DNA from: Microbacterium sp. B19
GTDB lineage: Bacteria > Actinomycetota > Actinomycetes > Actinomycetales > Microbacteriaceae
Assembly (NCBI RefSeq): GCF_000333395.1
Contig: NZ_BADA01000461.1
Location: forward strand, 1-34,336
Direction: 5' to 3'
DNA length: 34,336 nucleotides
Under the pieces are notes generated by a model, which saw only the letters and a list, made by a program, of their open reading frames with translations, was not told the origin of the DNA and did not search any database. Numbering within the stretch: the stretch's first letter is position 1; every line of letters starts with the position of its first letter. The translations under genes were made by a program, and so were the position numbers. This document shows, one piece after another, positions 10,257 to 34,336 of this stretch.

Positions 10257-10339
10257 TTCCCCCCCCAGGGCGGCCGCAGGGCCGTCAGCGCGGGTCGAGC
10301 GGCCCGCGGTTCACCGCGGAATCTTCTCCCGCTGACTAC

Positions 10340-10369
10340 GTTCTATCGCACGCGGGAAACGGCGGGCAA
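10340..10369 (-). promoter_or_regulatory. candidate promoter of the giant repeat protein
   Basis: On the minus strand TTGCCC (10369-10364) and TAGAAC (10345-10340) are 18 nt apart. They would start a transcript with a leader of about 75 nt before the ATG at 10256. The remaining gap (10257-10443) shows no other clear feature. The match is moderate. Confidence 0.35.
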
Positions 10370-10443
10370 GGAGAATATTCCCCCCGCCATGCCGCCACCG
10401 CACCCCCGAGGCTGCCGAAGGCTCTCGCGGAGCACGAGGGACG

Positions 10444-14059: not shown

Positions 14060-14066
14060 GCGATGC

Positions 14067-14072
14067 AGTATG
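14067..14072 (-). promoter_or_regulatory. -10 box for a leaderless start of the molybdenum hydroxylase operon
   Basis: On the minus strand CATACT ends 7 nt before the ATG at 14059, and no Shine-Dalgarno sequence precedes that ATG. This is the arrangement of leaderless actinobacterial transcripts. No good -35 is visible. Confidence 0.4.
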
Positions 14073-14102
14073 CACGAGCGGCGACCAGGGGGGAACGGCG
14101 CC

Positions 14103-14287
14103 TTCTCAGCCCTCGATAGCGGCCTTCTCAGCGCGCGACGGGGAAATCCGCGCAGAAATGCGGCCGACGGAGGCGTTCTCAGCGGCGGCGTTCGACGCCG
14201 AAACACACGAGAAACCGTGATTTTACGGGGATCGGGCCCGTTCTCGACGCGCGGCGGCCCGCCGCGGACGTGGCGGCGATTCTCACG
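14103..14287. promoter_or_regulatory. repeated TTCTC boxes and palindromes in the divergent control region
   Basis: The 347-bp gap between the molybdenum hydroxylase and the catabolic run (14060-14406) holds no gene. TTCTCAGC occurs exactly at 14103-14110, 14125-14132 and 14176-14183, with looser copies at 14241-14248 (TTCTCGAC) and 14280-14287 (TTCTCACG). The first two are 22 bp apart, about two helical turns. Palindromes lie at 14186-14200 (CGGCGT-TCG-ACGCCG) and 14250-14266 (CGCGGCGG-C-CCGCCGCG). These are candidate binding sites, perhaps for the IclR protein encoded in the run. That link is inferred. Confidence 0.35.
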
Positions 14288-14308
14288 CGCGGTGTCGGAA
14301 AACGTAAC

Positions 14309-14336
14309 TTGGCGCGAGCGGTCCGCTCCCTATAGT
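14309..14336 (+). promoter_or_regulatory. sigma-70-type promoter of the 13-gene catabolic run
   Basis: TTGGCG (14309-14314) and TATAGT (14331-14336) are separated by 16 nt. Transcription would start near 14343 and give a leader of about 65 nt before the ATG at 14407, which has GGAG (14398-14401) as ribosome-binding site. It is the strongest promoter-like match in this gap. Confidence 0.6.
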
Positions 14337-14406
14337 TCTCGTCAAGCGACAGACCCATTCTCTCCAGGTGAGAGACCCGAACCTCCCAACGACAGATGGA
14401 GAACTG

Positions 14407-15450: not shown

Positions 15451-15456
15451 TCCCTC

Positions 15457-15485
15457 GGGCCGCCCGCTCTCGCGGCGGGCGGCCC
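15457..15485 (+). terminator. intercistronic GC hairpin after the binding-protein gene
   Basis: A perfect 11-bp stem (GGGCCGCCCGC at 15457-15467 with GCGGGCGGCCC at 15475-15485) has a 7-nt loop and starts 6 nt after the stop codon. There is no U-tract. It probably stabilises the binding-protein mRNA or lets only part of transcription continue, a common way to make more binding protein than permease. Confidence 0.6.
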
Positions 15486-15526
15486 TCCCCGCCATACCGA
15501 ACCGACCCGCGCCGAAAGGGGCCCCC

Positions 15527-16531
15527 GTGACGACCCAAGCGACACCCGAGCGACGGGCGACCGTCGCCGAGACGGCACCGACGCCGCGCCGCCGCCTCAC
15601 GGCGGCCGGTCTCGAGCGATGGACGCTCCCGGCCGTGTTCGTCCTCGCGATCGCGCTGTTCTCGATCCTGAAGCCCGCGGTCTTCCCCACGCCGGCCAAC
15701 TTCATCGCGATCGTGCAGCAGAACCTGCCGCTGCTGGTGGTGGTCGGCGGGCTCTGCGTGGTCCTGGCGCTGCGCGAGTTCGACCTCTCCTTCGGCTTCG
15801 TGGCCGGCGCCGCGGGAGCCCTCGCCGTCCAGTCGATGGTGCTGTGGCAGGCGAACTGGATCGTCGCCACGCTTCTCGGCATCGTCTTCGGCGCGGTGCT
15901 CGGCGCGGTCAACGGCATCCTGGTCGCCTACACGCGGCTTCCCTCGTTCATCGGCACGCTCGCGACGGGGGCGACGATCCAGGGCGTCATGCTCGCGATC
16001 TCGAGCCAGACGATCTTCTCCGGCATCGCGCCGGAGTACACGCTCATCACCGGCGCCACCATCGGAACGCTGCCGATCGACATCGTCGTCGTCGCCGTCC
16101 TTCTCGTCGCCATCGGTGCCCTGCTGCGCTTCACCGTCTTCGGACGACACGCCTCCGCCATCGGTGACAACCCCGTCGCCGCGCGGATCGCGGGCGTCAA
16201 CGTCAAAGGCATCCAGGTCCTGAGCTTCACCCTGGTCGGCGCGTGCGCCGGCATCAGCGGCGTGCTCCTCACCTCGCAGGCGGGTCAGTACTACCCCGAC
16301 CCGGGCAGCAGCCTGCTCCTGCCGGCCTTCGCCGCGGCCTACCTCAGCCTCTCGCTCGGACGCGGCTGGCGCTTCAACGTGGGCGGGGCCGTCCTCGGCG
16401 CCCTCTTCCTCGCCGTAGTGAGCACGGGCGTCACGATGCTCAATCAGCCGAGCTGGCTCGGCCAGCTGCTGCAGGGTCTCATCCTGCTGATCGCCATCCT
16501 GGCGCTGAACCGCCGCCGGGGGACGCGATGA
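15527..16531 (+). CDS. ABC transporter permease (RbsC/BPD_transp_2 family)
   Basis: This integral membrane subunit of 334 residues has about eight to ten hydrophobic segments, the first at about residues 37-57. It carries family signatures such as LREFDLSFGFVAGAAGALA (segment 3 region), the GAVLGAVNGILVAYTRLPSFIGTLATG loop and GRHASAIGDNPVAARIAGVNVKGI, the coupling region that touches the ATPase. It forms the pore for the imported compound. The GTG start at 15527 has AAAGGGG 6 nt upstream. The stop overlaps the ATG of the ATPase (ATGA). Confidence 0.93.
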   Translation: MTTQATPERRATVAETAPTPRRRLTAAGLERWTLPAVFVLAIALFSILKPAVFPTPANFIAIVQQNLPLLVVVGGLCVVLALREFDLSFGFVAGAAGALAVQSMVLWQANWIVATLLGIVFGAVLGAVNGILVAYTRLPSFIGTLATGATIQGVMLAISSQTIFSGIAPEYTLITGATIGTLPIDIVVVAVLLVAIGALLRFTVFGRHASAIGDNPVAARIAGVNVKGIQVLSFTLVGACAGISGVLLTSQAGQYYPDPGSSLLLPAFAAAYLSLSLGRGWRFNVGGAVLGALFLAVVSTGVTMLNQPSWLGQLLQGLILLIAILALNRRRGTR

Positions 16532-18072
16532 CGGCGTGGCTGCGGACCGTCGGACTCACCAAGACGTTCGGCGGGGTGACGGCGATCGGCGACGCCGCGG
16601 TCGCGCTCGGCGCGGGCGAGGTGCGCGGTGTCGTCGGCCCGAACGGGGCCGGGAAGTCGACGCTGATGCAGATGCTCGCCGGCATCCATGCTCCGGACGG
16701 CGGCGAGATCCTCATCGACGGCACCGCCGCGCAGTTCAAGGGCCCGGACGACGCGCTCGAAGCGGGCATCGCGCTGGTGCCCCAGGAGATGCAGCTCGCG
16801 CCGCACCTCAGCGTCGCCGGGAACATCGTCCTGGGCCGCGAACCCCGGCGATTCGGCGTGGTCTCGGAGTCGCGCTCGCGCGCCGTCGCGGAGCGGGCCC
16901 TGGAGCGACTCGGCGCGCCGATCGAGGCCACGGCACCGATCCACTCGCTGACCTCGGTGGAACGCCGACTGGTGATGGTGGCGCGCGCCCTGGTCACGGA
17001 TGCGCGACTCATCATCCTGGACGAGCCGACCGCGGCCCTCGCCCCGCAGGAGGCCGCCGCGATCCTCGACATGGTGAGGAGCCTCTCCGCGAAGGGAGTC
17101 AGCGTCCTCTACGTCTCGCACCGCTTCGACGACATCGAGGCCGTCGCGGATTCGGTCACGGGGGTGCGGGACGCGCGCGTCGTCGCCGACCTGGCGAAGG
17201 AGGAGATCAGCCGATCCGCGCTCGTGCAGCTGGTCACGCCCGTCGACCAGATCTCGCACCGCGTGGACGCGCCCGCCGACCGCCTCGCCGATTCCGGAAG
17301 CACGCGAGAGACCGCTCTCGTCGTCGAGGACCTGCGCGGGGGACCGCTCGAGAATCTGTCGTTCTCCGCCCACCGCGGCGAGATCCTCGGCCTCTCGGGC
17401 CTCGCCGGTTCAGGCGCCGACGAGGTGCTCTGGTTCGTCGGCGGCATCGACCCGCGGGGCGGCGGAGCGGTCACGGTCGACGGGATGCCACTGCGTTCGG
17501 GCGACCGACTGCAGGCCGCCCGCGCGGGTGTCGCGTACGTCCCCGGGGACCGGGGCCTCGCGGCCCTGCCGAGTCATGACATCCGATCCAACATCTCCGT
17601 GTCGAGCCTGCGCGGCCTCGCCGTCGCGGGGGTGCCGAACCGCGCGCGAGAGACCGACACCGTGACGGCGCTCGCCGCGCGCGTGCGCCTGGCCGCGCCG
17701 ATCTCCGCGGCGTTGTCGACCCTCTCGGGCGGCAACCAGCAGAAGGCGATCTTCGCCCGGTGGATGGCGGCCGACGCGCGGGTGCTGCTGCTGCACGACC
17801 CGACCGCCGGGGTCGACGTCGGCGCCCGGGCCGAGATCCATCAGCGCGTGCGCGAGCTCGCCGCGACGGGCGTGACCGTGCTCGTCGTGTCGACCGACGT
17901 GCCGGAGATCTGCGAGCTCGCGGACCGCGTGATCGTCCTCGATCGCGGGCTTGCCGTCGCGGAGATCTCGGGCGACGCCATCAGCGAGCCGGCGCTCCTC
18001 GCCGCGATGACGAGTGGAGCGACGGCGCAGACGACCGCAGGACATCCGGACCCCCGTGGAGGAACCTCGTGA
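16528..18072 (+). CDS. ABC transporter ATP-binding protein, two fused nucleotide-binding domains (RbsA-like)
   Basis: This ATPase of 514 residues drives the importer. Domain 1 has Walker A GPNGAGKST at residues 37-45 and Walker B LIILDEPTAAL near 160. Its signature motif is degenerate (LTSVERR). Domain 2 begins near residue 265; its P-loop region is changed to SGLAGSGADE, while its signature LSGGNQQK and Walker B (VLLLHDPTAGVD) are intact. One canonical P-loop with one canonical signature is normal for the sugar-type fused ATPases RbsA, MglA and XylG. The ATG overlaps the permease stop; the end overlaps the GTG of the IclR gene (GTGA). An in-frame upstream extension lies inside the permease gene and is not used. 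Confidence 0.93.
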   Translation: MTAWLRTVGLTKTFGGVTAIGDAAVALGAGEVRGVVGPNGAGKSTLMQMLAGIHAPDGGEILIDGTAAQFKGPDDALEAGIALVPQEMQLAPHLSVAGNIVLGREPRRFGVVSESRSRAVAERALERLGAPIEATAPIHSLTSVERRLVMVARALVTDARLIILDEPTAALAPQEAAAILDMVRSLSAKGVSVLYVSHRFDDIEAVADSVTGVRDARVVADLAKEEISRSALVQLVTPVDQISHRVDAPADRLADSGSTRETALVVEDLRGGPLENLSFSAHRGEILGLSGLAGSGADEVLWFVGGIDPRGGGAVTVDGMPLRSGDRLQAARAGVAYVPGDRGLAALPSHDIRSNISVSSLRGLAVAGVPNRARETDTVTALAARVRLAAPISAALSTLSGGNQQKAIFARWMAADARVLLLHDPTAGVDVGARAEIHQRVRELAATGVTVLVVSTDVPEICELADRVIVLDRGLAVAEISGDAISEPALLAAMTSGATAQTTAGHPDPRGGTS

Positions 18073-18893
18073 CCAGACAGACCAGCAGCACGTTCACCGC
18101 GGCGATGGCCGCGAACCCCGGTGAGGTGCGCGCGCGCACCACCGGCACGTCGGGCTCGGAGAGCTCGCGGCGGGTCCTCGCCGTACTCCTCTCCTTTACC
18201 GAGGAGAACCACACGCAGTCCGTGCAGGAGATCGCCGGCTACCTCGACGTCCCGGTCAGCTCCGCGTACCGCTACGTCGGTCAGCTCAAGGACTTCGGGC
18301 TCCTGGAGGAGGCCGAGTTCGGCGGCTACCGGGTGTCGCTGCGCGCGGTCGGCCTCGCCGCCGCGGCGCGCGCCGGGTCCGCGGGGCTCGCCGAGGTCGT
18401 GCGCCCGGTGCTCGAGCGGTTGGCCCGGGAGACCGGCGAGACCTCTCTCCTGGTGCGACGTCTCGGGCAGGCGGTCGTCGCGGTCGACATCGAGGAGTCG
18501 CGGCGCCCCGTGCGGTTGCGCTTCGAGAAGGGCGTGCTCATGTCCCTCCACCAGGGCGCCGGCGCGCGCGTCCTGCTGTCGGCCCTGACCCCCAAGGAGC
18601 GGGCCGAGTACTACAAGTCGATCTGGGCCTTCGAGGAGGACCCGAAGCTGCCGACGGATGCCGAGCTCGCCGACATCGCGGCCGCCGGCTGGACCGAGAG
18701 CTTCGGTCAGATCGAGGACGGCATCTGGGGGACCGCCGCGGCCATCCGCGTCAATCGCTCGGTCGTCGCCGCGCTCGCGGTCGCCGGTCCGCTCTACCGC
18801 CTCGACGACGACAAGCGCGCCCACATCATCGAGGCGGTCCGGGCGGCCGCGACCGAGATCAACGCCACGGTCGGCGAGGGGACGAACGCATGA
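18069..18893 (+). CDS. IclR-family transcriptional regulator
   Basis: This 274-residue regulator has a winged-helix DNA-binding domain near residues 33-90 (SSRRVLAVLLSFTEE, VQEIAGYLDVPVSSAYRYVGQL, GGYRVSLRAVGLA). An IclR effector domain follows to the end (VVRPVLERLARETGETSLLVRRLGQAVV, LHQGAGARVLLSALTP, GIWGTAAAIRVN, VAALAVAGPLYRL). It binds a small molecule and controls promoters, in this position most likely those of its own run and perhaps the divergent molybdenum hydroxylase. GGAGGAA lies just before the GTG start. It sits between the importer and the enzymes and overlaps both neighbours by 4 bp, so its level should follow that of the operon. Confidence 0.92.
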   Translation: MTRQTSSTFTAAMAANPGEVRARTTGTSGSESSRRVLAVLLSFTEENHTQSVQEIAGYLDVPVSSAYRYVGQLKDFGLLEEAEFGGYRVSLRAVGLAAAARAGSAGLAEVVRPVLERLARETGETSLLVRRLGQAVVAVDIEESRRPVRLRFEKGVLMSLHQGAGARVLLSALTPKERAEYYKSIWAFEEDPKLPTDAELADIAAAGWTESFGQIEDGIWGTAAAIRVNRSVVAALAVAGPLYRLDDDKRAHIIEAVRAAATEINATVGEGTNA

Positions 18894-20392
18894 CGACGAC
18901 GGCACATGCGCTCCCGCTGTGGATCGCGGGCGAGCCCCACGAGGGGACGACGGTCATCGAGCGCGAGAACCCCGCGCGTCCGGGGGAGGTCGTCGGTGCG
19001 GTCGCGGCCGGCGACGCCCGGCTCACGACGATCGCCATCGACGCGGCGCACGCCGCCTTCCCGGCGTGGGCGGCACGACCGGTCGCCGAGCGCGTCCGCC
19101 GGGTGCGCGACGCGATCGCGCAGGCTTCGGCCGACAACCCCGCGCGTTCGCGTCTGCTGGCCCGGGAGCTCGGCAAGGTCGCGCCGGACGCGCTCGGCGA
19201 GCTGGGCTTCGCGGCCGCGTTCGCCGACTTCGCCGCGCCCGTCGCGGAGCGGATCAGTGCCGACGTCGTCGTCGAGGACGCCGAGGGTCGCCTGGTGATC
19301 GTCAAAGAGCCGTTCGGCGTCATCGCGGCCATCACGCCGTGGAACGCCCCGGTCATCCTGGCCGCCCTCAAGGTCGTTCCGGCGCTCATGACGGGGAACA
19401 CGATGGTGCTCAAGCCGTCGCCGCTGGCACCGCTGGCCGTGACGGACTTCCTGTCCGCGGTGGCCGCCGAACTGCCCGCCGGGGTCCTCAACGTGGTCAA
19501 CGGCGGAGCGGACGTCGGGGAGACGCTCGTCTCCGACCCGCGCGTCGCGAAGATCACATTCACCGGGGGACTGCCCACCGCCCAGGCGATCGCCGCGTCC
19601 GCCGCCCGGCGCGTGACGCCGACGGTGATGGAGCTCGGCGGGAACGACGCCGCGATCTTCCTGCGGGACGCCGAGTACACCGAGGCGATGTACACGCGCG
19701 CGGTGTTCGGCGCCTTCCTCACGAGCGGACAGGTGTGCATGGCGATCAAGCGGATCTTCGTGCCGCGCGAGCGGCACGACGAGTTCGTCGCCGGCTTCCG
19801 CGCCGCCGCGGAGTCCGTGCTGCGCGTGGGCGATCCGCTCGAACCGGGCGTCACGATGGGTCCGGTCGTGAGCCGCGATCACCAGGAGCGCCTGCGGGGC
19901 CTGATCGAGTCGGCCGAGGCCGCCGGTGGCATCCGGTACGAGCTCGGTCGCTGGGACGTCGAGCCGGACGCGGCCGACGGGTACTGGGTCCGTCCGACCC
20001 TCGTGACGGGGCTGACCGACGAGCACCCCCTCGTCGCCGACGAGCAGTTCGGGCCGGTGGTCCCCGTGCTCGTGTACGACGACGAGGACGAGGTGGTCCG
20101 CCGGGCCAACGCGGTCGACCAGTCGCTCGCATCGTCGGTATGGTCGACCGATCCCGCCCACGCCGAGGCCATCGCCCGACGCCTGGATGTCGGCTTCACG
20201 TTCCTCAACTGCGCCAATCGCGCCGGCACGTCGCTCCGCGCTCCCTTCGGGGGCCGCGGACTCAGCGGCCACGGCCGCGAGTTCGGCGAGCTCGGCGTCG
20301 GGGAGTACCTCCAGACCCACTCGATCAACTACCCCGCGGCGGTCCGCACCGGCGAGGCCGCGGGGAACGCCTACCCGGTCCCCGCGTCGTGA
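18890..20392 (+). CDS. NAD(P)-dependent aldehyde dehydrogenase
   Basis: This protein of 500 residues oxidises an aldehyde to a carboxylate. All key residues are present: TPWN at 149-152 (Asn152 stabilises the oxyanion), Lys175 in VLKPS (cofactor), TFTGG at 223-227, the general base Glu248 in MELGGND and the nucleophile Cys283 in SGQVCMAIKR. The QVCxAIKR context groups it with AldA-like aldehyde dehydrogenases of actinobacteria and not with betaine-aldehyde enzymes. The length is full. The start overlaps the IclR stop (ATGA) and the end overlaps the next gene (GTGA). It probably acts on the aldehyde made by one of the two alcohol dehydrogenases in the same run. Confidence 0.93.
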   Translation: MTTTAHALPLWIAGEPHEGTTVIERENPARPGEVVGAVAAGDARLTTIAIDAAHAAFPAWAARPVAERVRRVRDAIAQASADNPARSRLLARELGKVAPDALGELGFAAAFADFAAPVAERISADVVVEDAEGRLVIVKEPFGVIAAITPWNAPVILAALKVVPALMTGNTMVLKPSPLAPLAVTDFLSAVAAELPAGVLNVVNGGADVGETLVSDPRVAKITFTGGLPTAQAIAASAARRVTPTVMELGGNDAAIFLRDAEYTEAMYTRAVFGAFLTSGQVCMAIKRIFVPRERHDEFVAGFRAAAESVLRVGDPLEPGVTMGPVVSRDHQERLRGLIESAEAAGGIRYELGRWDVEPDAADGYWVRPTLVTGLTDEHPLVADEQFGPVVPVLVYDDEDEVVRRANAVDQSLASSVWSTDPAHAEAIARRLDVGFTFLNCANRAGTSLRAPFGGRGLSGHGREFGELGVGEYLQTHSINYPAAVRTGEAAGNAYPVPAS

Positions 20393-21411
20393 CCGTTCCG
20401 ACACCGCGCATCGGGGGACGCACGGTCCGGCTCCGCGCGGCCCGGACACTGGAGGTCGACGTCCTCCCCGTGCCGGAGCCGCGAGCGGGAGAGGTGCACG
20501 TGCGCATCCGGGCCGTGGGGATCTGCGGCACGGACGTGCACGGGTACCTCGGCCGCACGGACTCCTACCCGGCGACGCTGGGACACGACGCGATCGCCAC
20601 CGTGGTCGAGGTCGGGCCCGACACCCCGTCGATCCTGGCGGTGGGGGACCGGGTCGTCATCGACCCGACCCTCGCGTGCGGGGAGTGCGCGGCGTGCCGG
20701 GCGGGGTCGCCGCAGATCTGCCGCAACGGCGGTTACCTCGGGATGGGCGTTCCGGGCGTCATGGCGGACCACCTGGTCGTGGCGGCCGACCGCCTCGTGC
20801 CCGTGCCGGACGTCGTGGCCGACGACGCCGCGACGGTCCTCGAACCGATCACGGTCGCCCTCCACCTGCTCGAGCGCATCGGGTCGTTCTCGCCGCCCGG
20901 ACGTCGCGCCCACGTGATCGGGGGCGGGCCCCTCGGCGTGCTGCTGGCGCAGACCCTCGAGGCCTTCTCGTGGGACACCACGGTGTACGAACCGCAGCCG
21001 CATCGCCGGGAGATCGCGCAGAGCCTCGGTCTCCGCGTGGTCGATCCGGCGGAGATGGATGCCGGCTCCCCGGGCGACTCCGGCCCGGTTCTGGTCGTCG
21101 AGACCTCGGCGGCGGCCGCCGGGGTGGAGACCGCGCGGATGCTCGCCGCGCCCGGTTCGGTCGTCGCCCTCGTGGGGCGCGCGCCGACCGGTTTCAGCAG
21201 CGCCGAGATCCTGCTGCACGAGCTCACGGTGCTCGGCGTGCGCGCCGGCACGGGGCAGTACGCGCGGGCGGTCCAGCTCGTCGCCGACGGTTCCGTCGCC
21301 CCCGCGGCCACCATCACGCACCGGTTCGATCTCGCCGACGCCGCGGACGCTTTCGCGGCCGTCACCGACTCCGAGCAGCACGTGATGCGGGCCGTGCTCC
21401 TCGCATCCTGA
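20389..21411 (+). CDS. zinc-dependent medium-chain alcohol dehydrogenase (sorbitol/threonine dehydrogenase-like)
   Basis: This protein of 340 residues oxidises an alcohol with NAD(P). Catalytic zinc ligands are Cys46 (GICGTDVHG) and His66, followed by Asp67 where most relatives have Glu (GHD instead of GHE). The later Glu in VLEPITVAL is also in place. The structural zinc cluster is complete (CGECAACRAGSPQIC, C-x2-C-x2-C-x7-C). The Rossmann motif is GGGPLGVLLAQ, near 180. The start is the GTG at 20389 overlapping the aldehyde dehydrogenase stop. The GHD variant and the ALDH neighbour suggest a polyol-like or hydroxymethyl substrate, but this is inferred. Confidence 0.9.
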   Translation: MTVPTPRIGGRTVRLRAARTLEVDVLPVPEPRAGEVHVRIRAVGICGTDVHGYLGRTDSYPATLGHDAIATVVEVGPDTPSILAVGDRVVIDPTLACGECAACRAGSPQICRNGGYLGMGVPGVMADHLVVAADRLVPVPDVVADDAATVLEPITVALHLLERIGSFSPPGRRAHVIGGGPLGVLLAQTLEAFSWDTTVYEPQPHRREIAQSLGLRVVDPAEMDAGSPGDSGPVLVVETSAAAAGVETARMLAAPGSVVALVGRAPTGFSSAEILLHELTVLGVRAGTGQYARAVQLVADGSVAPAATITHRFDLADAADAFAAVTDSEQHVMRAVLLAS

Positions 21412-21440
21412 TCCCGCCTCCCGACAGGAAGACACCCCCC

Positions 21441-22190
21441 ATGACCACAGACATCACCGGCTATCGAGCGAAGGTCGGCGTCATCGTCCCCTCGACCAAC
21501 ACGGTCGTCGAGCACGACACCGCCCTGCTCGCGCCGCACGGCGTCACCTTCCACACCGGCCGCATGTACATCGACGACCCGGCGATGGACGACGACACCA
21601 CCTTCGTGAATCTCATCGAGCAGATCCGCGCGTCCATGAAGGTCGCGCTGCGCGACGTCATGACCTGCAAGCCCGACCTCATGATGATGGGGATGTCCGC
21701 CGAGACCTTCTGGGGCGGTGTCGAGGGCAACGCCTCCTTCATCCGCCGCGTCGAGGAGATGGTCGGCGGGCTGCAGGTCACGACCGGTGCCTCCTCCTGC
21801 CGTGCCGCGCTCGAAGCATTCGACGTCAGGCGCATCGCGGTCTTCTCGCCGTATCAGCCGGTCGCCGACGTCAACGTCAACCGCTACTTCACCGAGGCCG
21901 GCTTCGACGTGCTCAACGTGACCGGGTTGCGCGTCCCGAGCGCGACCGCCATCGCGGAGGTGTCCGAGGAGACCGTCATCCGCACACTCAAGGAGATCGA
22001 CTCGCCCGACGTCGAGGCCATCGTGCAGGTCGGGACGAACCTGTCGATGGTCCGGCTCGCCGACCAGGCCGAGCACTGGCTCGGCAAGCCCGTCATCGCG
22101 ATCAACGCCGCCACCATCTGGCACACCCTGCGCTCCGCGGGATTCACCGACACCTGGGGTGCCGCGGGATCCCTCCTCCGCAACTTCTGA
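21441..22190 (+). CDS. maleate isomerase / arylmalonate decarboxylase-family protein (Asp/Glu racemase superfamily)
   Basis: This protein of 249 residues has the pseudo-symmetric two-domain fold of the Asp/Glu racemase superfamily. VGVIVPSTNTVVEHD (12-26) is the family start motif; FSPYQPVADVNVNRYF (135-150) opens the second half; KPVIAINAATIWHTLR lies near the end. Maleate isomerase and most racemases use two cysteines, arylmalonate decarboxylase one. Here the two positions read MGMSAE (Met85-Ser86) and VQVGTN (Gly198-Thr199), so neither is Cys. The known cofactor-free mechanisms need at least one, so the reaction may differ. It probably acts on an unsaturated or substituted diacid. ATG at 21441 has AGGAAG upstream, 30 nt after the previous gene. 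Confidence 0.85.
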   Translation: MTTDITGYRAKVGVIVPSTNTVVEHDTALLAPHGVTFHTGRMYIDDPAMDDDTTFVNLIEQIRASMKVALRDVMTCKPDLMMMGMSAETFWGGVEGNASFIRRVEEMVGGLQVTTGASSCRAALEAFDVRRIAVFSPYQPVADVNVNRYFTEAGFDVLNVTGLRVPSATAIAEVSEETVIRTLKEIDSPDVEAIVQVGTNLSMVRLADQAEHWLGKPVIAINAATIWHTLRSAGFTDTWGAAGSLLRNF

Positions 22191-22240
22191 CCCGCGCCCC
22201 GGACGATCCGGGCCGCACGAGCCGACACGACAGGACTGAC

Positions 22241-23449
22241 ATGACCGAACACACTCCCTTCCGCGAGCTCGACGCCGACGTGGTCGTCGTCGGAGGAGGG
22301 CCCGTCGGGACGACGACCGCACTCACCCTCGCCCAGGGCGGGCTCCGTGTGATCGTCCTGGAGGGGCGCGCCGCGACGAGCCTCGAGGCCCGTGCGACGA
22401 CGTTCCATCCCCCCACCCTGGAGATGCTCGACGAGCTGGGCCTGGCGGAGGAACTGATCCGCCAGGGCATCATTGCGGAGTCGTACCAGTTCCGCGACGC
22501 GGAGCGGGGCAAGATCGTCGACCTCGAGTTCTCGGTCCTCAGCGAGGACACCCGCTACCCGTTCCGTCTCCAGGTGGAGCAGAGCGTCATGACGCTCATG
22601 GCCAACCGGGCGCTCGAGGCGCACCCCCTCGCCGAGCTGCACAACCTCGCGACCGTCACCGCCGTCCGACCGCAGGACGACCACGTCGAGGTCGAGGTCG
22701 TGGGCGGCCCGCGGGAGGGCGTCCTCCGCGCGCGGCACGTCGTCGGAGCAGACGGGATGCGAAGCACCGTGCGCTCGCAGCTGGGCATCGGGTTCACCGG
22801 GCACACGTATCCCGAGCGGTTCCTGGTCACCTCCACCTCGGCGCCCCTGCACGAGCTGCTCCCCGACATCGCGAGCGTCAACTACGTCGCCGACCCGGTC
22901 GATTGGCACGTGCTCATGCGCAACCCGAGCGGGTGGCGCGTGCTGTTCCCGGCGCCGTTCGGTGAGGAGACCGCGGAAGAGCTGCTCTCGTCCGAGAACG
23001 TCCGTCGGCAGTTCGACCGCGTGCTCCCGGGCCACGACCCGGAGAAGATCGACTGGGTGACCCTGTATGAGGTGCACCGGAAGGTCGCGGACTCGTTCCG
23101 GGCGGGCAACGTCTACCTCGTCGGAGACGCGGCGCACGTCAACAACCCCATGGGAGGAATGGGGATGAACAGCGGCGTGCACGACGGGTACCTCCTCGCG
23201 AAGCTGCTGGTGCGGGCGGGGAACGGCGAGGACGTGGATGCCGAGCTCGACGACTGGGCGCGCCGTCGCCGCGAGGTCGCCCTCGACTACGTGGGCAAGG
23301 AGACCGAGGGCAACTGGTCGGCGCTGCGCGACACCGACGAGGAGCGCCGTGCCGCGCAGCGCGCGGCGTGGGAGGCGCTGGGGGAGGACGAGGAGGCCCG
23401 ACGGTCGTTCCTGCTCACGTCGTCGATGCTCGCGAGCCTGCGGGGCTGA
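22241..23449 (+). CDS. FAD-dependent monooxygenase (PheA/TfdB/MhpA-like, FAD_binding_3)
   Basis: This protein of 402 residues is a class A flavoprotein hydroxylase. It has the FAD-binding GGGPVG at 18-23, the [17 protein letters not shown] segment typical of aromatic hydroxylases, the DG motif [12 protein letters not shown] near 170, and the GD motif [19 protein letters not shown] near 290-310. It lacks the C-terminal thioredoxin-like domain of phenol hydroxylases (530-600 residues) and is closer in size to salicylate, 6-hydroxynicotinate or vitamin B6 ring-opening monooxygenases. It likely adds oxygen to, or opens, an aromatic or heteroaromatic ring with NAD(P)H and O2. AGGA lies 5 nt before the ATG, and the previous gene ends 50 nt upstream. 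Confidence 0.9.
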
Positions 23450-23454
23450 CCCCG

Positions 23455-24051
23455 ATGCAGCCCTTCATCCGTCACGAGGGGGTCGGAGCCCCCCTGCGTC
23501 TCAGCAACGTCGACACCGACCAGATCCTCCCCTCGAAATACCTCAAGCGCGTGACGCGGACGGGGTTCGAGGACGCCCTGTTCGCGGCGTGGCGCACCGA
23601 CCCGGACTTCGTCCTCAACCGACCGCCCTTCCGGGACGCCTCGGTCCTCGTCGCGGGCCCGGACTTCGGCACCGGGTCGTCGCGGGAGATGGCCGTGTGG
23701 GCCCTCCAGGACTACGGCTTCCGCGTCGTCATCGCGCCCCGGTTCGGCGACATCTTCTTCAGCAACGCCGGCAAGGCGGGCCTCCTCGCGGTGCGGCTCG
23801 ACGAGGACGTCGTCGAGCGACTCTGGGATCACCTGGATGCCACGCCGGGGGCGACGATCGCCGTGGACCTCGAGCGGGGCACGGTGGAGGCGGGTGGCAT
23901 CCATGTCGGGTTCCTCCTCGACGAGTACACGCGGTGGCGTCTGCTGCACGGATACGACGACATCGCGATCACCCTCGAGTCCGCGGAGGCGATCGATCGA
24001 TTCGAGGCGGCGCGCAGCGACCTCAAGCCCGTGATCGGGGCCGGTCGATGA
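23455..24051 (+). CDS. leuD: LeuD-like small subunit of an aconitase-family hydro-lyase
   Basis: This protein of 198 residues is clearly homologous to the 3-isopropylmalate dehydratase small subunit ([17 protein letters not shown] at 17-33; [11 protein letters not shown] at 68-78; [25 protein letters not shown]). The catalytic Ser-Ser-Arg-Glu is kept, but the next residue is Met79, where LeuD proteins normally have His (SSREHA). The gene comes before leuC, not after it, and is separated from it by an amidase gene. The context is a catabolic run, so I think it handles another 2-alkylmalate/alkylmaleate pair (as DmdB does) and not leucine synthesis. The symbol gives the family only. The start ATG is 5 nt after the monooxygenase stop. 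Confidence 0.88.
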
Positions 24052-24683
24052 CGGCGCGGGAGGGCGTCCAGAGCGACGCGGAGGCCGGCTTCGGGCGGAG
24101 GCTGACGCCGGGGGCGTCACCGGCGCTCGTCGTCGTCGACATGGTGCGGGCCTACTTCGAGCCGGGCGAACAGCTGTACATGGGGCTCGACGACTGCCTC
24201 CTCTCGGCGGAGCGCGTGCTTGCGGCAGCGCGTCGGGCGGGGATCCCCGTGCTGCACACCACCGTCTCGTTCGTGGAGGGCGGGATGGACGGCGGCTACT
24301 TCTTCCGGAAGGTCGGGGCGCTGTCGGTCTTCGTCGGTGACAAGCCCGGCGGCCGCATCATGCCGCAGGTGGCACCTCACCCGGGGGAGCCGGTGCTCGT
24401 CAAGCAGTACGCGAGCGCGTTCTTCGGAACCTCGCTCGCCTCGACGCTGCGCGCACAGGGGGTCGACACGGTCATCGTCGTCGGTGTGAGCACGAGCGGC
24501 TGCATCCGCGCGACGGCCGTCGACGCCCTGCAGCACGGCTTCATCCCGCTCGTGGTGCGCGACGCCGTCGGCGATCGCGCGGACGGCCCCCACGAGGCGA
24601 ACCTCTTCGACATCCAGGCGAAGTACGGCGAGGTCCTCGACGAGGCGGCGGTCCTCGAGTACCTCGGCGGGGTGACGCGATGA
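24048..24683 (+). CDS. isochorismatase-family amidohydrolase (N-carbamoylsarcosine/maleamate amidase-like)
   Basis: This cysteine hydrolase of 211 residues has the full catalytic triad of the family: Asp31 (LVVVDM), Lys119 ([13 protein letters not shown]) and Cys152 ([15 protein letters not shown]). It has the cis-peptide region just before the Cys. Family members hydrolyse amides or carbamoyl groups, for example N-carbamoylsarcosine, maleamate (NicF), nicotinamide or ureidoacrylate (RutB). The [11 protein letters not shown] form with a long N-terminus fits the carbamoylsarcosine/maleamate branch better than true isochorismatase. Its place between the two halves of a LeuCD-like enzyme implies that the pathway intermediate loses an amide nitrogen. 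Both ends overlap neighbours by 4 bp (ATGA). Confidence 0.9.
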
Positions 24684-26116
24684 CGTCGGCGACGACCGCG
24701 CCGCGGACGATGATCGACAAGATCTGGGAGCGCCAGGCGATCGCGCGCGGGGACGGGCGGCCCGACCTGCTCTACATCGACCTCCACTTCGTCCACGAGG
24801 TGTCGAGTCCGCAGGCGTTCGACGGGCTGCGGGTCGCCGGTCGACCTGTCCGGCGGCCCGACCTGACGATGGCCACCGAGGATCACAACGTCCCGACCGA
24901 CACGCTCCTGCTTGCCGATCCGGTGAGCAGGCTCCAGGTCGAGACGCTCCGCCGCAACTGCGAGGAGTTCGGGATCGAGCTGCAGCGGCTCGGCGACCCA
25001 GGACAGGGCATCGTCCACGTGATCGGCCCCGAGACGGGACTCACGCAGCCCGGGATGACGATCGTGTGCGGCGACAGCCACACCTCGACCCACGGTGCGC
25101 TCGGTGCCCTCGCGTTCGGCATCGGCACGAGCGAGGTCGAGCACGTCCTCGCGACCCAGACGCTGCCGCAGGCCCGTCCGAAGACGATGGCGGTGACCGT
25201 GAATGGACGCCTTCCCGACGGGGTGTCGTCGAAGGACCTCGCCCTGGCGCTCCTGTCCCGGGTGGGGACCGGGGGCGGCCAGGGTCACGTCGTCGAGTAC
25301 CGCGGGGAGGCGATCCGGGCGCTCTCGATCGAGGCGCGGATGTCGCTGTGCAACATGAGCGTGGAGTGGGGCGCCCGCGCGGGTCTCGTCGCGCCGGACG
25401 AGGTCACGTTCGCGTACCTCCGGGGACGCCGGTACGCGCCCGCGGGTGACGCGTGGGAGCGCGCGGTGGCCGAGTGGTCGTCGCTGACGACCGACGAGGG
25501 CGCCGTGTTCGATCGGGAGATCGTGATCGACGCCGCGGAGATCTCGCCGTTCGTGACATGGGGGACCAACCCGGGCCAGGGCGCCCCCCTCGATTCCGCC
25601 GTGCCGGATCCGGAGGCGTTCACCGACCCGGAGGAGCGCGAGGCCGCCCACCGCGCGCTCGCGTACATGGACCTGCGCCCCGGCACCCCGCTGCGCGGCA
25701 TCCCGCTCGACACCGTCTTCATCGGCTCGTGCACGAACAGCCGCATCGAAGACCTGCGCATCGCCGCGGACGTCCTCCGCGGACGGCGCGCCGCCGCCGG
25801 GATCCGGCTCCTCGTCGTCCCCGGGTCGATGGCGGTCAAGCGCCGTGCGGAGGAGGAGGGCCTCGACGAGGTCTTCCGTGCCGCCGGCGCCGAGTGGCGC
25901 GGGGCGGGGTGCTCGATGTGCCTGGGGATGAACCCCGACGTCGTCGGACCGGGCGAACGCACCGCGTCCACCTCCAACCGTAACTTCGAGGGCCGCCAGG
26001 GACCGGGTGCTCGCACGCACCTGGTCTCCCCGGCGGTGGCCGCGGCATCCGCCGTGATCGGCCGCCTCGCCTCTCCCGCCGACCTGTCGGCATCCGATCA
26101 GAAAGTGATTCCATGA
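24680..26116 (+). CDS. leuC: LeuC-like large subunit of an aconitase-family hydro-lyase
   Basis: This protein of 478 residues is full-length and very similar to actinobacterial 3-isopropylmalate dehydratase large subunits. The [4Fe-4S] ligands are Cys351 (GSCTNSR), Cys411 and Cys414 (GCSMCLGMN). Substrate-binding stretches include ATEDHNVPT (65-73), [23 protein letters not shown] (130-152) and [12 protein letters not shown] near 430. With the LeuD-like protein it would reversibly add water to an alkylmaleate-type double bond. The lyase that directly follows can cleave such a product, a pairing known from 2,3-dimethylmalate metabolism (DmdAB with Dml). A role as the cell's only leucine dehydratase cannot be excluded without the rest of the genome. 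It overlaps both neighbours by 4 bp. Confidence 0.9.
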
Positions 26117-27015
26117 CCCCCGCCTCCCAGCTCCGCGGACTGCTCGCCGACACCGCCGCACCCCTCGTCGTCCCCGGCGCGGGGACGCCCCTCGAGGCGC
26201 TCGCGATCCAGCGCGCGGGCTTCGGCGCGGTCTACCTCAGCGGCTACGCCATCGCGGCCTGGCGGCACGGCCTGCCCGACATCGGACTCCTCGGTGCCGG
26301 GGAGGCCCTCGAGGCGCTGACGGCCACCGCCCGCGTGACCGACCTGCCCCTGCTCGTCGACGCCGACACGGGGTACGGGGATGCCACCTCGGTGTGGGCG
26401 AACGTCCGCATGCTCGAGGCGGCGGGGGCGGCCGGCATCCAGATCGAGGATCAGGTCTGGCCGAAGCGCTGCGGCCACATGGTCGGCAAGGAGGTCATCG
26501 ACGCCGACGAGGCCGTCCGCAAGATCGCCACCGCGGCCGAGGCCCGGCGCGATCCCGACACCGTCATCGTCGCGCGCACCGACTCGCTCGCGCCGCTCGG
26601 ACTGGACGAGGCGCTGTCGCGGGCCCAGCGGTTCCGCGAGGTCGGCGCCGACGTCGTCTTCATCGACGCGCCGTCGTCGATGGCGGACCTCCGCCGGATC
26701 GGTGCGGAGCTCGACGGCCCGATCATGGCCAACATGAGCGAGGGCGGTGTGACCCCGGCGCTGTCCGCGGACGAGTTCCACGCCCTGGGATTCCAGCTCG
26801 TCATCTTCCCCACCGCCCCGCTGCGCGTCGCCTCGATGGCGATGTCGGACTTCCTCACCGACCTGCGCCGGGACGGCGATTCGCGGTCGTGGCGGGAACG
26901 AATGGACGGCCTCGACGAGCTCAACGATCTCGTCGGTCTCGATCGCTACCTCACGATCGGCGACCGGGCGTCGAGTCTCGATCTGCCCCGGGCCGCCGTG
27001 CAGGGGGCGTCGTGA
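26113..27015 (+). CDS. isocitrate lyase/PEP mutase-superfamily C-C lyase (methylisocitrate or dimethylmalate lyase-like)
   Basis: This TIM-barrel lyase of 300 residues splits a 2-hydroxy dicarboxylate into a 2-oxoacid and a shorter acid. The metal site is [11 protein letters not shown] (80-90). The flexible catalytic loop carries KRCGH at 118-122 with the acid/base Cys120, which marks true lyases (PrpB, Dml) and is absent from PEP mutases and phosphonopyruvate hydrolases. [21 protein letters not shown] and FIDAP further down are also typical. Directly after the LeuC-like gene with a 4-bp overlap, it probably cleaves the hydrated product of LeuCD, giving pyruvate or glyoxylate plus acetate, propionate or a homologue. 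PrpB itself is less likely because no methylcitrate synthase or dehydratase PrpD is nearby. Confidence 0.9.
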
Positions 27016-28118
27016 GGATTCGCGGCGCGGTCCTCGAGGAGGTGGGGCGGCCCGCCCCCTTCCGCGAATCGCGGCCCCTCACCGTCTCGGAACTCGAGCT
27101 GGCCGAACCCGGTCGCGAGGAGATCCGGGTGCGGATCGAAGTCGCCGGGCTCTGCCACTCCGACCTCTCGGTCGTCGACGGCAACCGCGCGCGTCCCACG
27201 CCGATGCTCCTCGGGCACGAGGCCGCCGGGATCGTGGATGCCGTCGGCCCGGGCGCCGATCCGGAGATGCTCGGTCGGCGAGTGGTCATGACGTTCCTTC
27301 CGCGCTGCGGCGCGTGCGAGGGGTGCGCGAGCAACGGGCTGCGGCCCTGCGTGCCCGGCTCGGCGGCGAACGGAGCCGGCGAACTGATCGCCGGCGGTCG
27401 GCGCCTGAGCAGGGACGGCATCCCGGTGCACCATCATCTCGGCGTCTCCGGTTTCGCCGACCACGCGGTCGTCTCCGTCCACTCGGTCGTGCCCGTGTCG
27501 GACGATGTGCCCGCGGACGTCGCCGCCGTCCTGGGGTGCGCCGTGCTCACCGGCGGCGGAGCCGTGCTCAACGCCGGGCGGCCGTCGCCCGGGCAGACGG
27601 TGGCCGTGGTCGGACTCGGCGGCGTCGGCATGGCCGCGCTGCTCACCGCGCTCGCGCTGGACGATCTCACGGTCATCGCGGTCGATGCCGTCGAGGCGAA
27701 GCTCGCGCTCGCCCGTGAACTCGGTGCTGCGCGGGCGTTGTCTCCCGCCGAGGCCGTGGAGTCCGGGCTGCGCGCTCCCGTGGTGATCGAGGCCGCCGGC
27801 AACGTGCGCGCCCTCGAGACGGCGATCGCGCTGACCGAGGCCGGAGGGCGCACCGTCACCGTCGGACTCCCCGCGCCGGACGCGCGCGTGAGCTTCTCGC
27901 CCACGGCCCTCGTCGCGGAGGGGCGCTCGATCATCGGCAGCTACCTCGGCTCCGCGGTGCCCGAGCGCGACATCCCCGTGTTCGTCGACCTCTGGCGACG
28001 CGGGCGTCTGCCGGTGGAGCGTCTCGTCTCGTCGGAGATCGCGCTCGACGACATCAACGAGGGCATGGACGCTCTGGCATCCGGTGCCGCCGTGCGTCAG
28101 ATCATCCGCTTCGCCTGA
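27012..28118 (+). CDS. zinc-dependent alcohol dehydrogenase (class III-like)
   Basis: This protein of 368 residues is the second medium-chain dehydrogenase of the run and belongs to another branch from the first. It has catalytic zinc ligands in GLCHSD and GHEAAG (the usual GHE), a complete structural zinc cluster (CGACEGCASNGLRPC), and a Rossmann motif GLGGVGMAAL near 198. It resembles class III and mycobacterial-type alcohol dehydrogenases. It may oxidise the primary alcohol at pathway entry or reduce an aldehyde formed on the way. The GTG start overlaps the lyase stop. It is the last gene of the run, followed by two hairpins. Confidence 0.9.
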   Translation: MRIRGAVLEEVGRPAPFRESRPLTVSELELAEPGREEIRVRIEVAGLCHSDLSVVDGNRARPTPMLLGHEAAGIVDAVGPGADPEMLGRRVVMTFLPRCGACEGCASNGLRPCVPGSAANGAGELIAGGRRLSRDGIPVHHHLGVSGFADHAVVSVHSVVPVSDDVPADVAAVLGCAVLTGGGAVLNAGRPSPGQTVAVVGLGGVGMAALLTALALDDLTVIAVDAVEAKLALARELGAARALSPAEAVESGLRAPVVIEAAGNVRALETAIALTEAGGRTVTVGLPAPDARVSFSPTALVAEGRSIIGSYLGSAVPERDIPVFVDLWRRGRLPVERLVSSEIALDDINEGMDALASGAAVRQIIRFA

Positions 28119-28149
28119 CTCGGCGCTCAGGGGAGGGTTTCCGGCGGGG

Positions 28150-28225
28150 GGAGGAGCCCCGCGGGGCTTGGCCTCCTCCGCTCCCCGTTTCTCCTCCGCT
28201 CGTCGCCCGGAGCGATCCGGGCGAC
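28150..28225. terminator. two hairpins between convergent genes
   Basis: AGCCCC-GC-GGGGCT (28155-28168), widened by GAGG/CCTC arms (28151-28154 and 28172-28175), is followed by a perfect 10-bp stem with a 4-nt loop (GTCGCCCGGA at 28202-28211, TCCGGGCGAC at 28216-28225). Neither has a U-tract, as is common in high-GC actinobacteria. They probably end transcription of the catabolic run and of nucS from the other side. Confidence 0.55.
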
Positions 28226-28228
28226 CTG

Positions 28229-28923
28229 TCAGAACAGCCGCGGAGCGCCCGACTCGATGCCCTTCATCTCGTCGTAGTCGAGGGTGAGGCAGCGGATGCC
28301 GCGGTCGGTCGCGAGCACGCGCGCCTGCGGCTTGATCTCCTGCGCCGCGAAGACGCCGCTCACGGGTGCGAGCAGCGGGTCGCGGTTGAGGAGCTCGAGG
28401 TAGCGGGTGAGCTGCTCGACGCCGTCGATGTCGCCGCGGCGCTTGACCTCGATCGCGACCGTGCCGCCGTGTCGTCGCGCAGCAGCAGATCGACGGGGCC
28501 GATCGCGGTGGGGTACTCCCGGCGGACGAGCGTGAGGCCCTCGCCCACGACCGACACCTGCTCCGCGAGCAGCCGCTGCAGGTCGGCTTCGACGCCGTCC
28601 TTGATGAGACCGGGGTCGACGCCGAGGTCGTGCGAGGTGTCGTGGATCACCTCGTAGATCTTCACGACGAGCGCGTCGCCGGACTTCTTGTGCGTGACGC
28701 GCCACTGCTGAGTGACGCCGACGCTCGCGGCATCCTCATCCGGCTCCTCGACCGTGAGCGTGCACGGCGGGCTCATCCAGTTCAGCGGCTTGTAGGACCC
28801 GCCGTCCGAGTGCACGAGCAGCGACCCATCGCCCTTGTGCACGAGCAGACGCGTGGCGAGCGGCAGATGGGCGTTGAGCCGACCGGTGTAGTCGACGGAG
28901 CAGCGGGCGATGACGAGACGCAC
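28229..28923 (-). pseudogene. nucS: nucS, mismatch-specific endonuclease, broken by a 1-nt frameshift
   Basis: NucS cuts mismatched DNA and is the key enzyme of non-canonical mismatch repair in actinobacteria that lack MutS/MutL. The N-terminal DNA-binding half reads normally from the GTG at 28923 ([50 protein letters not shown]). After PVDLLLRDD the frame is wrong. The family sequence resumes in another frame as [20 protein letters not shown], through [23 protein letters not shown] to RLF at 28229. The total of 695 bp is one short of 232 codons. Restoring one base near 28469-28475 gives a normal 231-residue protein. As written, the product loses the catalytic Glu and Lys of EVKRR. It may be real or a sequencing error. 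A leaderless -10 (TAGGCT) lies 6 nt before the GTG. Confidence 0.88.
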
Positions 28924-31421: not shown

Positions 31422-32003
31422 CTACAGTTCGATGACGATCTCGTGCAGTTTGTGGTTGATGAGCCCTCGGAACTGAGGGCGCCCCTCGTATGCCGCGGCG
31501 ACCGCGCCGGCTACGGCGTCCGCGACCCACAGGAGCGGTTCCTCCGAAGGCCGCGCGTGGTCGACACGGATCGACGGAGGCAAGGCGCCCGTCGTGCGGA
31601 GGCTGGCGATCATGGCGAGATCCCTCTGATTACCTATCCGGTCGCGCGACTCCAACCACACGTGTTGCACGTCGTCAGCGACCAGCTGGTGGACCAACAT
31701 TTGCAGGCATTTGCGACGCGCCCGCTCCTGTCGGCGAGAGTCGAGACGGGTGGCTGTCACGACCATGTTCGACAGCGAGAGCTCGCCGACGAGAGTCGCG
31801 ATCCGCATCTTGTCGCGTTCTTCCTCGCTGCTCCAATGGAGGCGCCCCGTTGCGCGTGCGAGTGACCGCAGGCGGCTCCGGTCGGCTTCGAGCGCCTCGG
31901 GCACGACGGGGCCCACGGCGGCAGCCAGGAGGTAGAGACCGCGAGCGACGAGCACGGACTCATCGACCCAAGCGTGCACCGGGAGGGGGGTGGGCGGACT
32001 CAT
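31422..32003 (-). CDS. DUF3800-like protein
   Basis: This protein of 193 residues shows the features of DUF3800, an RNase H-like fold of unknown role often found near mobile or defence genes. An early acidic strand HAWVDES (10-16), a middle region with DDVQHVWLESRDRIGNQRDLAM and a late WVADAVAGAVAAAYEG all fit, where the Asp residues would form the metal site. I choose the ATG at 32003 because family similarity starts right after it; the frame stays open upstream to 32354 without similarity. There is no good ribosome-binding site, but the ATG overlaps the stop of a small upstream frame (ATGA), which could couple translation. Confidence 0.75.
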   Translation of the reverse strand: MSPPTPLPVHAWVDESVLVARGLYLLAAAVGPVVPEALEADRSRLRSLARATGRLHWSSEEERDKMRIATLVGELSLSNMVVTATRLDSRRQERARRKCLQMLVHQLVADDVQHVWLESRDRIGNQRDLAMIASLRTTGALPPSIRVDHARPSEEPLLWVADAVAGAVAAAYEGRPQFRGLINHKLHEIVIEL

Positions 32004-32080
32004 CGAGCGGCCGGGGGCCGGGTCGTCCACACGGAAGCCTGCGACGCGAAGGCAGTTCCGAAATCGGCCCCTCGTTCCAT
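32000..32080 (-). CDS. possible 26-residue upstream peptide coupled to the DUF3800 gene
   Basis: An ATG at 32080 preceded by AAGGGAG opens a short frame (MERGADFGTAF...) that ends in a TGA overlapping the DUF3800 start codon (ATGA). The overlap and ribosome-binding site suggest a leader peptide that brings ribosomes to DUF3800. No similarity is recognised, and the frame could extend upstream to 32224. Confidence 0.25.
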   Translation of the reverse strand: MERGADFGTAFASQASVWTTRPPAAR

Positions 32081-32344
32081 GAGCTCTCCCTTCGCCATCG
32101 TCGACACTGCCGTTCTTCGGCTCGAGCCGAGCGACGAGGCAGCTCCGGCTCGTCGCGCACGCGGGAAAAATCCCCCGGTGTCCGTGCATGAGCGCGTCAC
32201 GTGTGCGGGGAGGAGTCCCGTCAAGCGGCATCCCCGCGCACATCCTGAGCATCACCCGACCGGGGAGACGAATGCCTCGGGTAGAATGGATCCGACACCC
32301 CGAGAGCCCGGGCACCTGCCCGTCGACCCCGAGGAGGCCCACTC
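32081..32344. other. intergenic region between DUF3800 and mrpA with promoter signals
   Basis: No convincing gene is seen here. An imperfect inverted repeat joins GTGCGGGGA (32203-32211) with TCCCCGCGCAC (32231-32241). TAGAAT at 32282-32287 is a good -10 box for mrpA, though the -35 is weak. GAGGAGG at 32331-32337 is the ribosome-binding site of the GTG at 32345. Confidence 0.5.
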
Positions 32345-34336
32345 GTGCTGGCATTCCTCGGCGCCTTCGCCCTCGTTCCGATCCTGCTGCCGTTCCTGGT
32401 GGCGAGAATCGGCGCCCGCGCGTTCTACGTCGCCGCCGTCCTCCCCGCCCTCGCTTTCGCGCACGCCATCGTGCTGGCGCCGACGGTGCTCTCCGGTGCC
32501 ATTCCGTTCGAGGAATACGCCTGGATCCCCGGTCTCGGCGTCACGCTCTCGATGCGCATGGACGTCCTGGGATGGCTCCTGACGCTGATCGTGACCGGTG
32601 TCGGCGCGCTCGTCATGCTCTACTGCCGCTGGTACTTCCGCGGCAAGACGACCGGGGTCGGACAGTTCTCCGCGGTGCTCCTCGCCTTCGCGGGGGCGAT
32701 GTACGGCCTCGTCCTCACCGACGACATCGTCGTGCTGATCATGCTGTGGGAGGTCACGAGCGTCCTGTCGTACCTGCTCATCGGGTACTACCACGGCCGC
32801 GCCGCGAGCCGCCGGGCCGCGCTCCAGGCGCTGCTGGTGACGACGCTCGGCGGACTCGTCATGCTGATCGGCGTCGTGCTGATGGTCGTACAGGCTGGCA
32901 CCACCAGCCTGTCCGCGATCCTCGCCGACCCGCCCGTCGGACCCGTGGCCGACGTCGCCGTGCTGCTGCTCCTGGTCGGGGCACTGAGCAAGTCGGCGAT
33001 CTTCCCGTTCCACTTCTGGCTCCCCGGTGCCATGGCGGCCCCGACCCCGGTGAGCGCCTACCTGCACGCCGCGGCCATGGTGAAGGCGGGCATCTACCTG
33101 ATCGCGCGCCTGGCGCCCGGCTTCGCCGACACCCCGTTCTGGCGCCCCACGCTCATCACGCTCGGCGTCTTCACGATGCTGCTCGGCGGATTCCAGGCGC
33201 TTCGCGAACGCGACCTCAAACGCATCCTCGCGTTCGGCACGGTGAGCCAGCTCGGCTTCCTGACCGTGATGCTCGGGTACGGCACCCGGGATGCCGCTCT
33301 CGCCGGCATCGCGCTGGTCCTCAGCCACGCGCTGTTCAAGTCGTGCCTCTTCCTCGTCGTCGGCGTGATCGACCGCCAGCTCTCCACGCGTGACATCGGC
33401 GAGCTGTCCGGCGTCGGTCGCCAGGCACCGGTCATGGCGACGGCCGCGTTCATCGCGATCGCCTCGATGGCCGGTGTCATCCCGGCCTTCGGCTTCGTCG
33501 CGAAGGAGACCGCGCTCACGGCGCTGTGGCACGAGGCGACCGAAGGGGCGCCGTGGGGCATCGTCGCGCTGATCGGCGTCGTCGCCGGGTCGGCGCTCAC
33601 GGCGGGGTATGGCATCCGGTTCCTCTGGGGGGCGTTCTGGACCAAGAAGTCCATCGAGCGCACCGAGTGGCCCGACCCGCCCATCGGGTTCCTCGCCTCG
33701 CCGGTCCTGCTGTCGGCCGCGACGCTCGCGCTCGGCTTCCTCGCGCCGATCGTCGACGGATGGCTCGCGCCGTACGCCGACACCGTCCCCGAGGCGACCG
33801 CGGGCGTCCCGGCCCCCGACCACACGTACCACCTGGCCCTCTGGCACGGCCTCGAGCCGGCGCTGTTCCTCTCGCTCGGCACGCTCGCGCTCGGCGCCGG
33901 AATCTTCTGGCTCGTGCGCCGCACCCAGCTGCACAAGCGCAAGCGGATGCTGCCCTTCACGGCGAACGACGCGTACAACGGCGTGCTGCGCGCGATCGAC
34001 CGGTCGTCGGAGTGGACGACGGCACGGTTCCAGCGCGGTTCGCTGCCGTTCTACGTCGGCACGATCTTCGTCGTCCTCGTCGTGGCCGAGGGCACGGCGC
34101 TGCTCGCCTCGGACGAATGGCGTGCGCAGCTCGACGCGTGGCAGTCGCCCGCGCAGCTCCTCGCCGCTCCGGTGATGATCGCCGCCGGCATCCTCGCGGT
34201 CCGCGCGCCCAAGCGCTTCACGGGCGTCGCGCTCGTGTCGGTGACCGGTCTCGGCATGGTCGTGCTCTTCGCGACGAGCGGTGCCCCCGACCTCGCGCTC
34301 ACGCAGGTGCTCATCGAGACGATCACGCTCGTGGTG
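32345..34336 (+). CDS. mrpA: Mrp-type Na+/H+ antiporter subunit A, partial (5' part)
   Basis: The frame is open from the GTG at 32345 to the window edge (664 residues; full MrpA is about 800-1000). MrpA is the largest subunit of a seven-protein antiporter for pH and sodium tolerance and is related to complex I NuoL. Proton-path residues of the family are visible: Glu136 in LMLWEVTSVLSYLLIGYY, Lys216 in LVGALSKSAIFPFHFWLPGAM, and His241 and Lys247 in YLHAAAMVKAGIYLIARL. The later segment LRERDLKRILAFGTVSQLG is also typical. Many hydrophobic segments follow. GAGGAGG lies 7 nt before the start. The remaining mrp genes should follow beyond the window. Confidence 0.93.
   Translation, partial: MLAFLGAFALVPILLPFLVARIGARAFYVAAVLPALAFAHAIVLAPTVLSGAIPFEEYAWIPGLGVTLSMRMDVLGWLLTLIVTGVGALVMLYCRWYFRGKTTGVGQFSAVLLAFAGAMYGLVLTDDIVVLIMLWEVTSVLSYLLIGYYHGRAASRRAALQALLVTTLGGLVMLIGVVLMVVQAGTTSLSAILADPPVGPVADVAVLLLLVGALSKSAIFPFHFWLPGAMAAPTPVSAYLHAAAMVKAGIYLIARLAPGFADTPFWRPTLITLGVFTMLLGGFQALRERDLKRILAFGTVSQLGFLTVMLGYGTRDAALAGIALVLSHALFKSCLFLVVGVIDRQLSTRDIGELSGVGRQAPVMATAAFIAIASMAGVIPAFGFVAKETALTALWHEATEGAPWGIVALIGVVAGSALTAGYGIRFLWGAFWTKKSIERTEWPDPPIGFLASPVLLSAATLALGFLAPIVDGWLAPYADTVPEATAGVPAPDHTYHLALWHGLEPALFLSLGTLALGAGIFWLVRRTQLHKRKRMLPFTANDAYNGVLRAIDRSSEWTTARFQRGSLPFYVGTIFVVLVVAEGTALLASDEWRAQLDAWQSPAQLLAAPVMIAAGILAVRAPKRFTGVALVSVTGLGMVVLFATSGAPDLALTQVLIETITLVV

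Follow-up and report, generated by a model that had tools for sequence, protein, structure and literature searches.

A one-base frame break in nucS of a Microbacterium draft genome, probably a base-level sequence error

Analysis of a 34,336-nucleotide contig of the Microbacterium sp. B19 draft (the whole stretch, contig C116, is called the window below) revealed that nucS, on the minus strand at 28229-28923, is written in two reading frames and lacks 1 base at about 28470/28471. The most probable explanation is an error at the base level of the draft assembly, which is a poor one: it comprises 3.65 Mb in 576 contigs, is 87% complete, and has sampled contigs as short as 97 bases. We infer that the living genome carries an intact nucS that is probably functional, which would encode a NucS/EndoMS mismatch endonuclease of the ordinary kind, 231 residues long.

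From a GTG at 28923, the minus-strand frame stays open for 187 codons (28360-28923); its residues are NucS-like to about codon 150 and unrelated beyond, so that comparison of the ORF with relatives gives about 150 native and 37 aberrant codons. Codons 1-150 (28474-28923, minus strand) encode the DNA-binding domain and the first part of the nuclease domain, with Asp 145, as placed by the ORFs, Pfam, and alignment to the intact gene of a relative, G009. The remainder lies in the other frame at 28229-28468 on the same strand; there the ORF translations, Pfam, and G009 place the C-terminal tail and the terminal stop (28229) as well as the Glu and Lys, which are residues 159 and 161 when the protein is intact. 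Pfam detects NucS_N (PF21003) in the first part (28469-28923) at 89.5 bits, against a cut-off of 23.9, together with positions 1-40 of the NucS_C profile at 35.7 bits, and positions 42-124 of NucS_C (PF01939) in the second part (28229-28474) at 88.1 bits. The PF01939 domain is present but split across two frames rather than continuous, a pattern that is not explicable by chance. The preliminary description had proposed a frameshifted gene with two NucS-like halves in different frames and one missing base near 28469-28475, and both points are borne out: in the alignment, this nucS is 1 base shorter than its closest relatives at about 28470/28471. The break site (28470-28471, minus strand), located by the alignment of 109 related loci and by a coding-through test against G009, falls in the turn that links the stretch carrying the Asp to the one carrying the Glu and Lys. 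It is internal to the contig (28.5 of 34.3 kb), neither at an edge nor in a long homopolymer. No second nucS copy was found, the only other PF01939 match in the genome being on contig C323 (21.5 bits, below the cut-off) and the other DNA matches spanning about 30 to 130 bases.

In the intact NucS of G009, Asp 145, Glu 159, and Lys 161 align with residues 160, 174, and 176 of Pyrococcus abyssi NucS (2VLD), positions that we take to be catalytic. Codons for all three residues are present in this nucS, but they are spread over two frames. The break, lying between Asp 145 and Glu 159/Lys 161, therefore separates the catalytic residues instead of preceding them all; the earlier statement that it comes before the catalytic residues holds for the Glu and Lys and fails for the Asp. 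Since one base is missing between these codons, no complete nuclease domain is encoded as written. Among 120 NucS protein records, the length of the Asp-Glu turn is 14 residues in 93, 15 in 9, and 21, 24, 34, 41, or 42 in six, with 12 records outside the pattern, three of which are this locus; among other species, the turn thus differs in length by whole codons. As a separate observation, six same-genus genomes (loci L266, L267, L269, L272, L273, and L274) have a NucS turn enlarged in frame, to 21 to 42 residues as against 14.

A single open frame of 229-232 codons was found in all 109 related nucS loci read, and the three copies that fail the single-frame test are this locus itself. The set comprises 29 same-genus genomes (the best of 198 genomes) and 80 named public contigs (the best 80 of 587), some of them probably the same species fetched twice; the closest named relatives of this nucS are Microbacterium. 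The comparison with sister strains suggested in the preliminary description returned an intact gene at these 109 loci. Preservation of both coding halves would suit a gene whose frames are joined by programmed frameshifting, or whose two parts work as separate polypeptides. Both ideas were rejected as very improbable: the two-frame layout occurs in 0 of the 109 loci, and inspection of the site by eye showed no slippery heptamer, as had already been remarked. Also against both ideas, the ORF carrying the second part is listed from 28705, within the first part, and reading of the sequence after the break places the first ATG, GTG, or TTG of the second frame only downstream of the Glu and Lys codons.

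At the codon level, nucS appears healthy on both sides of the break. It is 95% identical to its G009 counterpart, with 33 synonymous and 0 non-synonymous codon differences, of which 24 fall in codons 1-150 and 9 in codons 154-231. The absence of non-synonymous differences in both halves indicates normal purifying selection until very recently. A relative-rate test covered 6,872 sites in the flanks and took as outgroups G197 and G053, which agree at the counted sites; private changes number 106 here and 123 in G009 (p 0.29), and transitions make up 38 of the 106 and 53 of the 123 (p 0.28), so that no transition-biased excess of substitutions is seen on this lineage in these flanks. The preliminary description had also considered that the strain should be a mutator; the sequence gives no support for this, with no decay of nucS, no longer branch, and no transition excess in the flanks. 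An old pseudogene, in a lineage that lost NucS long ago and has since lived as a mutator, could appeal only to the frame break itself and is contradicted by the codon differences, by the branch length, and by the transition share, neither of the latter two being raised; we consider it hardly conceivable and rejected it. Nothing here points to a lineage that has long been NucS-null; a very recent loss would not be visible in the substitutions. Because the gene otherwise looks healthy, the break is most likely an error of sequencing or assembly, and at the most a mutation of very recent date.

The background of frame breaks in the draft was sampled in 72 genome stretches plus the window, giving 451,727 bases to set against 948,753 bases of G009 at partly overlapping loci. 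Most stretches were picked by contig number, while C57, C67, C323, and C484 were picked for weak nucS matches and six stretches were mapped to G009 by search. In the 157,241 bases that could be aligned to G009 (about 105 predicted genes), 104 gap clusters were found. The coding-through test, which asks whether a gap disrupts an open, codon-like reading frame of one of the two genomes, gave 37 frame-keeping clusters, 40 outside coding sequence, and 4 frame-breaking ones, the other 23, close to alignment edges, being skipped. All four frame-breaking coding indels are of 1 base and lie on the side of this genome: two in dprA, one in a metY-like gene (a Cys/Met-metabolism PLP enzyme), and one in nucS; none was found on the G009 side in the 157,241 aligned bases. 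The two dprA breaks, at positions 3272 and 3327 of locus L138 (C323), are about 55 bases apart, and the metY-like break is at position 6492 of L213 (C55); both gene names come from Pfam matches to the intact G009 frames. C55 was picked by number, but C323 was not a blind choice, having been fetched for its weak nucS-domain match. On contig C390 (L238, 1-28), two 1-base deletions relative to G009 lie within 28 bases of the contig end, an edge case left uncounted. Counted by gene, 2 (without nucS) or 3 are broken here as against 0 in G009, a difference that is non-significant alone (p 0.5 and 0.25).

Errors plainly do not abound in the draft, and its background of other frame breaks is low. A composition-only frameshift scan, which is noisy, marked 34 sites in the 452 kb from this genome, 50 in 767 kb from G009, and 5 in 55 kb from G197, with no clear excess here over G009. 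At stricter thresholds chosen post hoc for its three scores (70, 45, and 30), it retained 1 site in G009 and 6 here, nucS and a probable antisense shadow included; four of these 6 (on C45, C540, C240, and C500), when checked, proved to be two different genes side by side or to match a family weakly or not at all, and the filtered list was weighed on neither side. Antisense shadow frames and over-long starts distorted an ORF-based count of broken genes, in whose place the coding-through test was used. It is possible that the breaks in dprA and the metY-like gene are true mutations. PMC8228993 reports that strains with and without nucS have similar numbers of short indels. Loss of nucS therefore does not explain the dprA and metY-like breaks, which need another cause, and this cause would cover nucS too.

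We also surveyed nucS across the genus, using the intact G009 protein as a query against 366 genomes including this one, and obtained a match at E 0.001 in 363. Most genomes were judged by match strength alone, a best E of about 1e-110 or better being read as full-length, a rule that misses breaks in the last residues. A set of 15 genomes was re-searched and read, made up of some near the limit and of the weaker cases apart from this genome and G039. Besides the present genome (87% complete), nucS is frameshifted in G023 (83%; locus L277), G090 (68%; L276), G308 (76%; L270), and G181 (96%; L275), the last being the best candidate for a real natural loss of nucS. In G078, G290, and G297, the catalytic turn merely contains insertions that keep the frame. 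For G286, G305, and G313, the match stops where the fetched DNA stops, probably at a contig end; the search gave no convincing nucS match in G277 and G289 (98-99% complete, fragmented) and no match in G039 (44% complete). These six genomes are undecidable and were tallied as non-frameshifted. On this tally, a frameshifted nucS occurs in 4 of the 24 genomes below 90% completeness as against 1 of the remaining 342 (Fisher p 7e-5; with this genome left out, 8e-4). Apparent nucS breakage in the genus therefore follows assembly quality. The suggestion in the preliminary description that the break might be an assembly error is accordingly favoured, both by this association with low completeness and by the other 1-base coding breaks of the draft, of which G009 yielded none.

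A stretch of 26.4-26.5 kb, from 1712 to about 28131-28193 of the window, is absent at this place in G009, G053, and G197, the three genomes in which this place was judged. Its flanks lie close together in relatives, about 182 bases apart in G009, and the distance from its right edge to the end of nucS is 36 to 98 bases, according to the relative compared. Within it, Pfam outlines a catabolic-looking cluster at 10444-28118 that includes molybdenum hydroxylase subunits, a sugar-type ABC transporter, an aldehyde dehydrogenase, two zinc-type alcohol dehydrogenases, an EutA/arylmalonate decarboxylase-related protein, an FAD monooxygenase, an isochorismatase-like hydrolase, a LeuC-like aconitase, and a PEP-mutase/methylisocitrate-lyase-like lyase. 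The same stretch holds, at 1749-10256 on the minus strand, one ORF of 2,835 residues with many similar WW-containing repeats, as seen by eye. Searches of a plasmid collection gave no match to 1712-9711 and partial matches in 38 records to 10300-28200, covering at most 8% of the query among the ten matches listed; no tRNA and no Rfam family at the gathering threshold was found in the window. A second stretch of about 0.94-0.97 kb, from 31292 to about 32234-32261, likewise has no counterpart here in G009, G053, and G197, and the ORF at 31422-32354 has no Pfam match.

That NucS has truly been lost, very recently, in the strain, in the culture, or in part of the population, is the second explanation in likelihood, after an error. 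Such a loss would leave a predicted 187-residue product that keeps the DNA-binding domain and the Asp and lacks the Glu, the Lys, and the C-terminal tail, and the strain is then predicted to be a transition-biased mutator with relaxed homeologous recombination. The deposited sequence itself shows the break, and a loss this recent would be silent in the substitution record. According to PMC5290159, M. smegmatis and S. coelicolor survive deletion of nucS and become hypermutable. Furthermore, MutS_I (PF01624) has 0 matches in this genome (87% complete), compared with matches in 11 of 14 control genomes, so that no MutS is seen as a stand-in for NucS. Against a recent loss stand the lack of any trace of relaxed selection or mutator activity in nucS and its flanks, the further 1-base coding breaks of the draft, which are not reported to be an effect of NucS loss, and the concentration of frameshifted nucS in low-completeness genomes. 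That relaxed homeologous recombination in a recent natural null might have gone along with acquisition of the catabolic-looking 26.5-kb stretch seems more doubtful still.

If real, the break would be a natural knockout of the actinobacterial mismatch-repair nuclease and a test of NucS loss outside the laboratory. Among the titles listed in searches of the open PMC literature, none concerns a natural nucS frameshift in Microbacterium, and a literature search on indel errors in draft genomes gave nothing related. Because frameshifted nucS tracks low assembly completeness, apparent natural loss of NucS in drafts needs read-level proof; as it stands, with a base-level error the likely cause, the case is mainly a caution on drafts and is ordinary unless reads say otherwise.

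Compared with the known NucS/EndoMS enzymes of Actinobacteria and Archaea (PF21003 plus PF01939; structures 2VLD and 5GKE), the gene has both domains above the cut-off, the Asp, Glu, and Lys of its intact relative in G009 align with residues 160, 174, and 176 of 2VLD, and its counterparts are ordinary in 109 of 109 loci; unlike them, the copy in this draft lacks one base between the Asp and the Glu/Lys codons. The sequence as written lacks part of the active site, in which it resembles the laboratory NucS-null hypermutators of M. smegmatis and S. coelicolor (PMC5290159 and PMC8228993), but this lineage shows neither their transition bias nor a faster branch. With respect to indel errors of draft genomes, the break is atypical in lying neither at a contig end nor in a long homopolymer. 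It resembles them in being an isolated 1-base coding break in otherwise selected sequence, in having further examples in the same draft, and in that nucS is also frameshifted in other genomes of the genus with low completeness.
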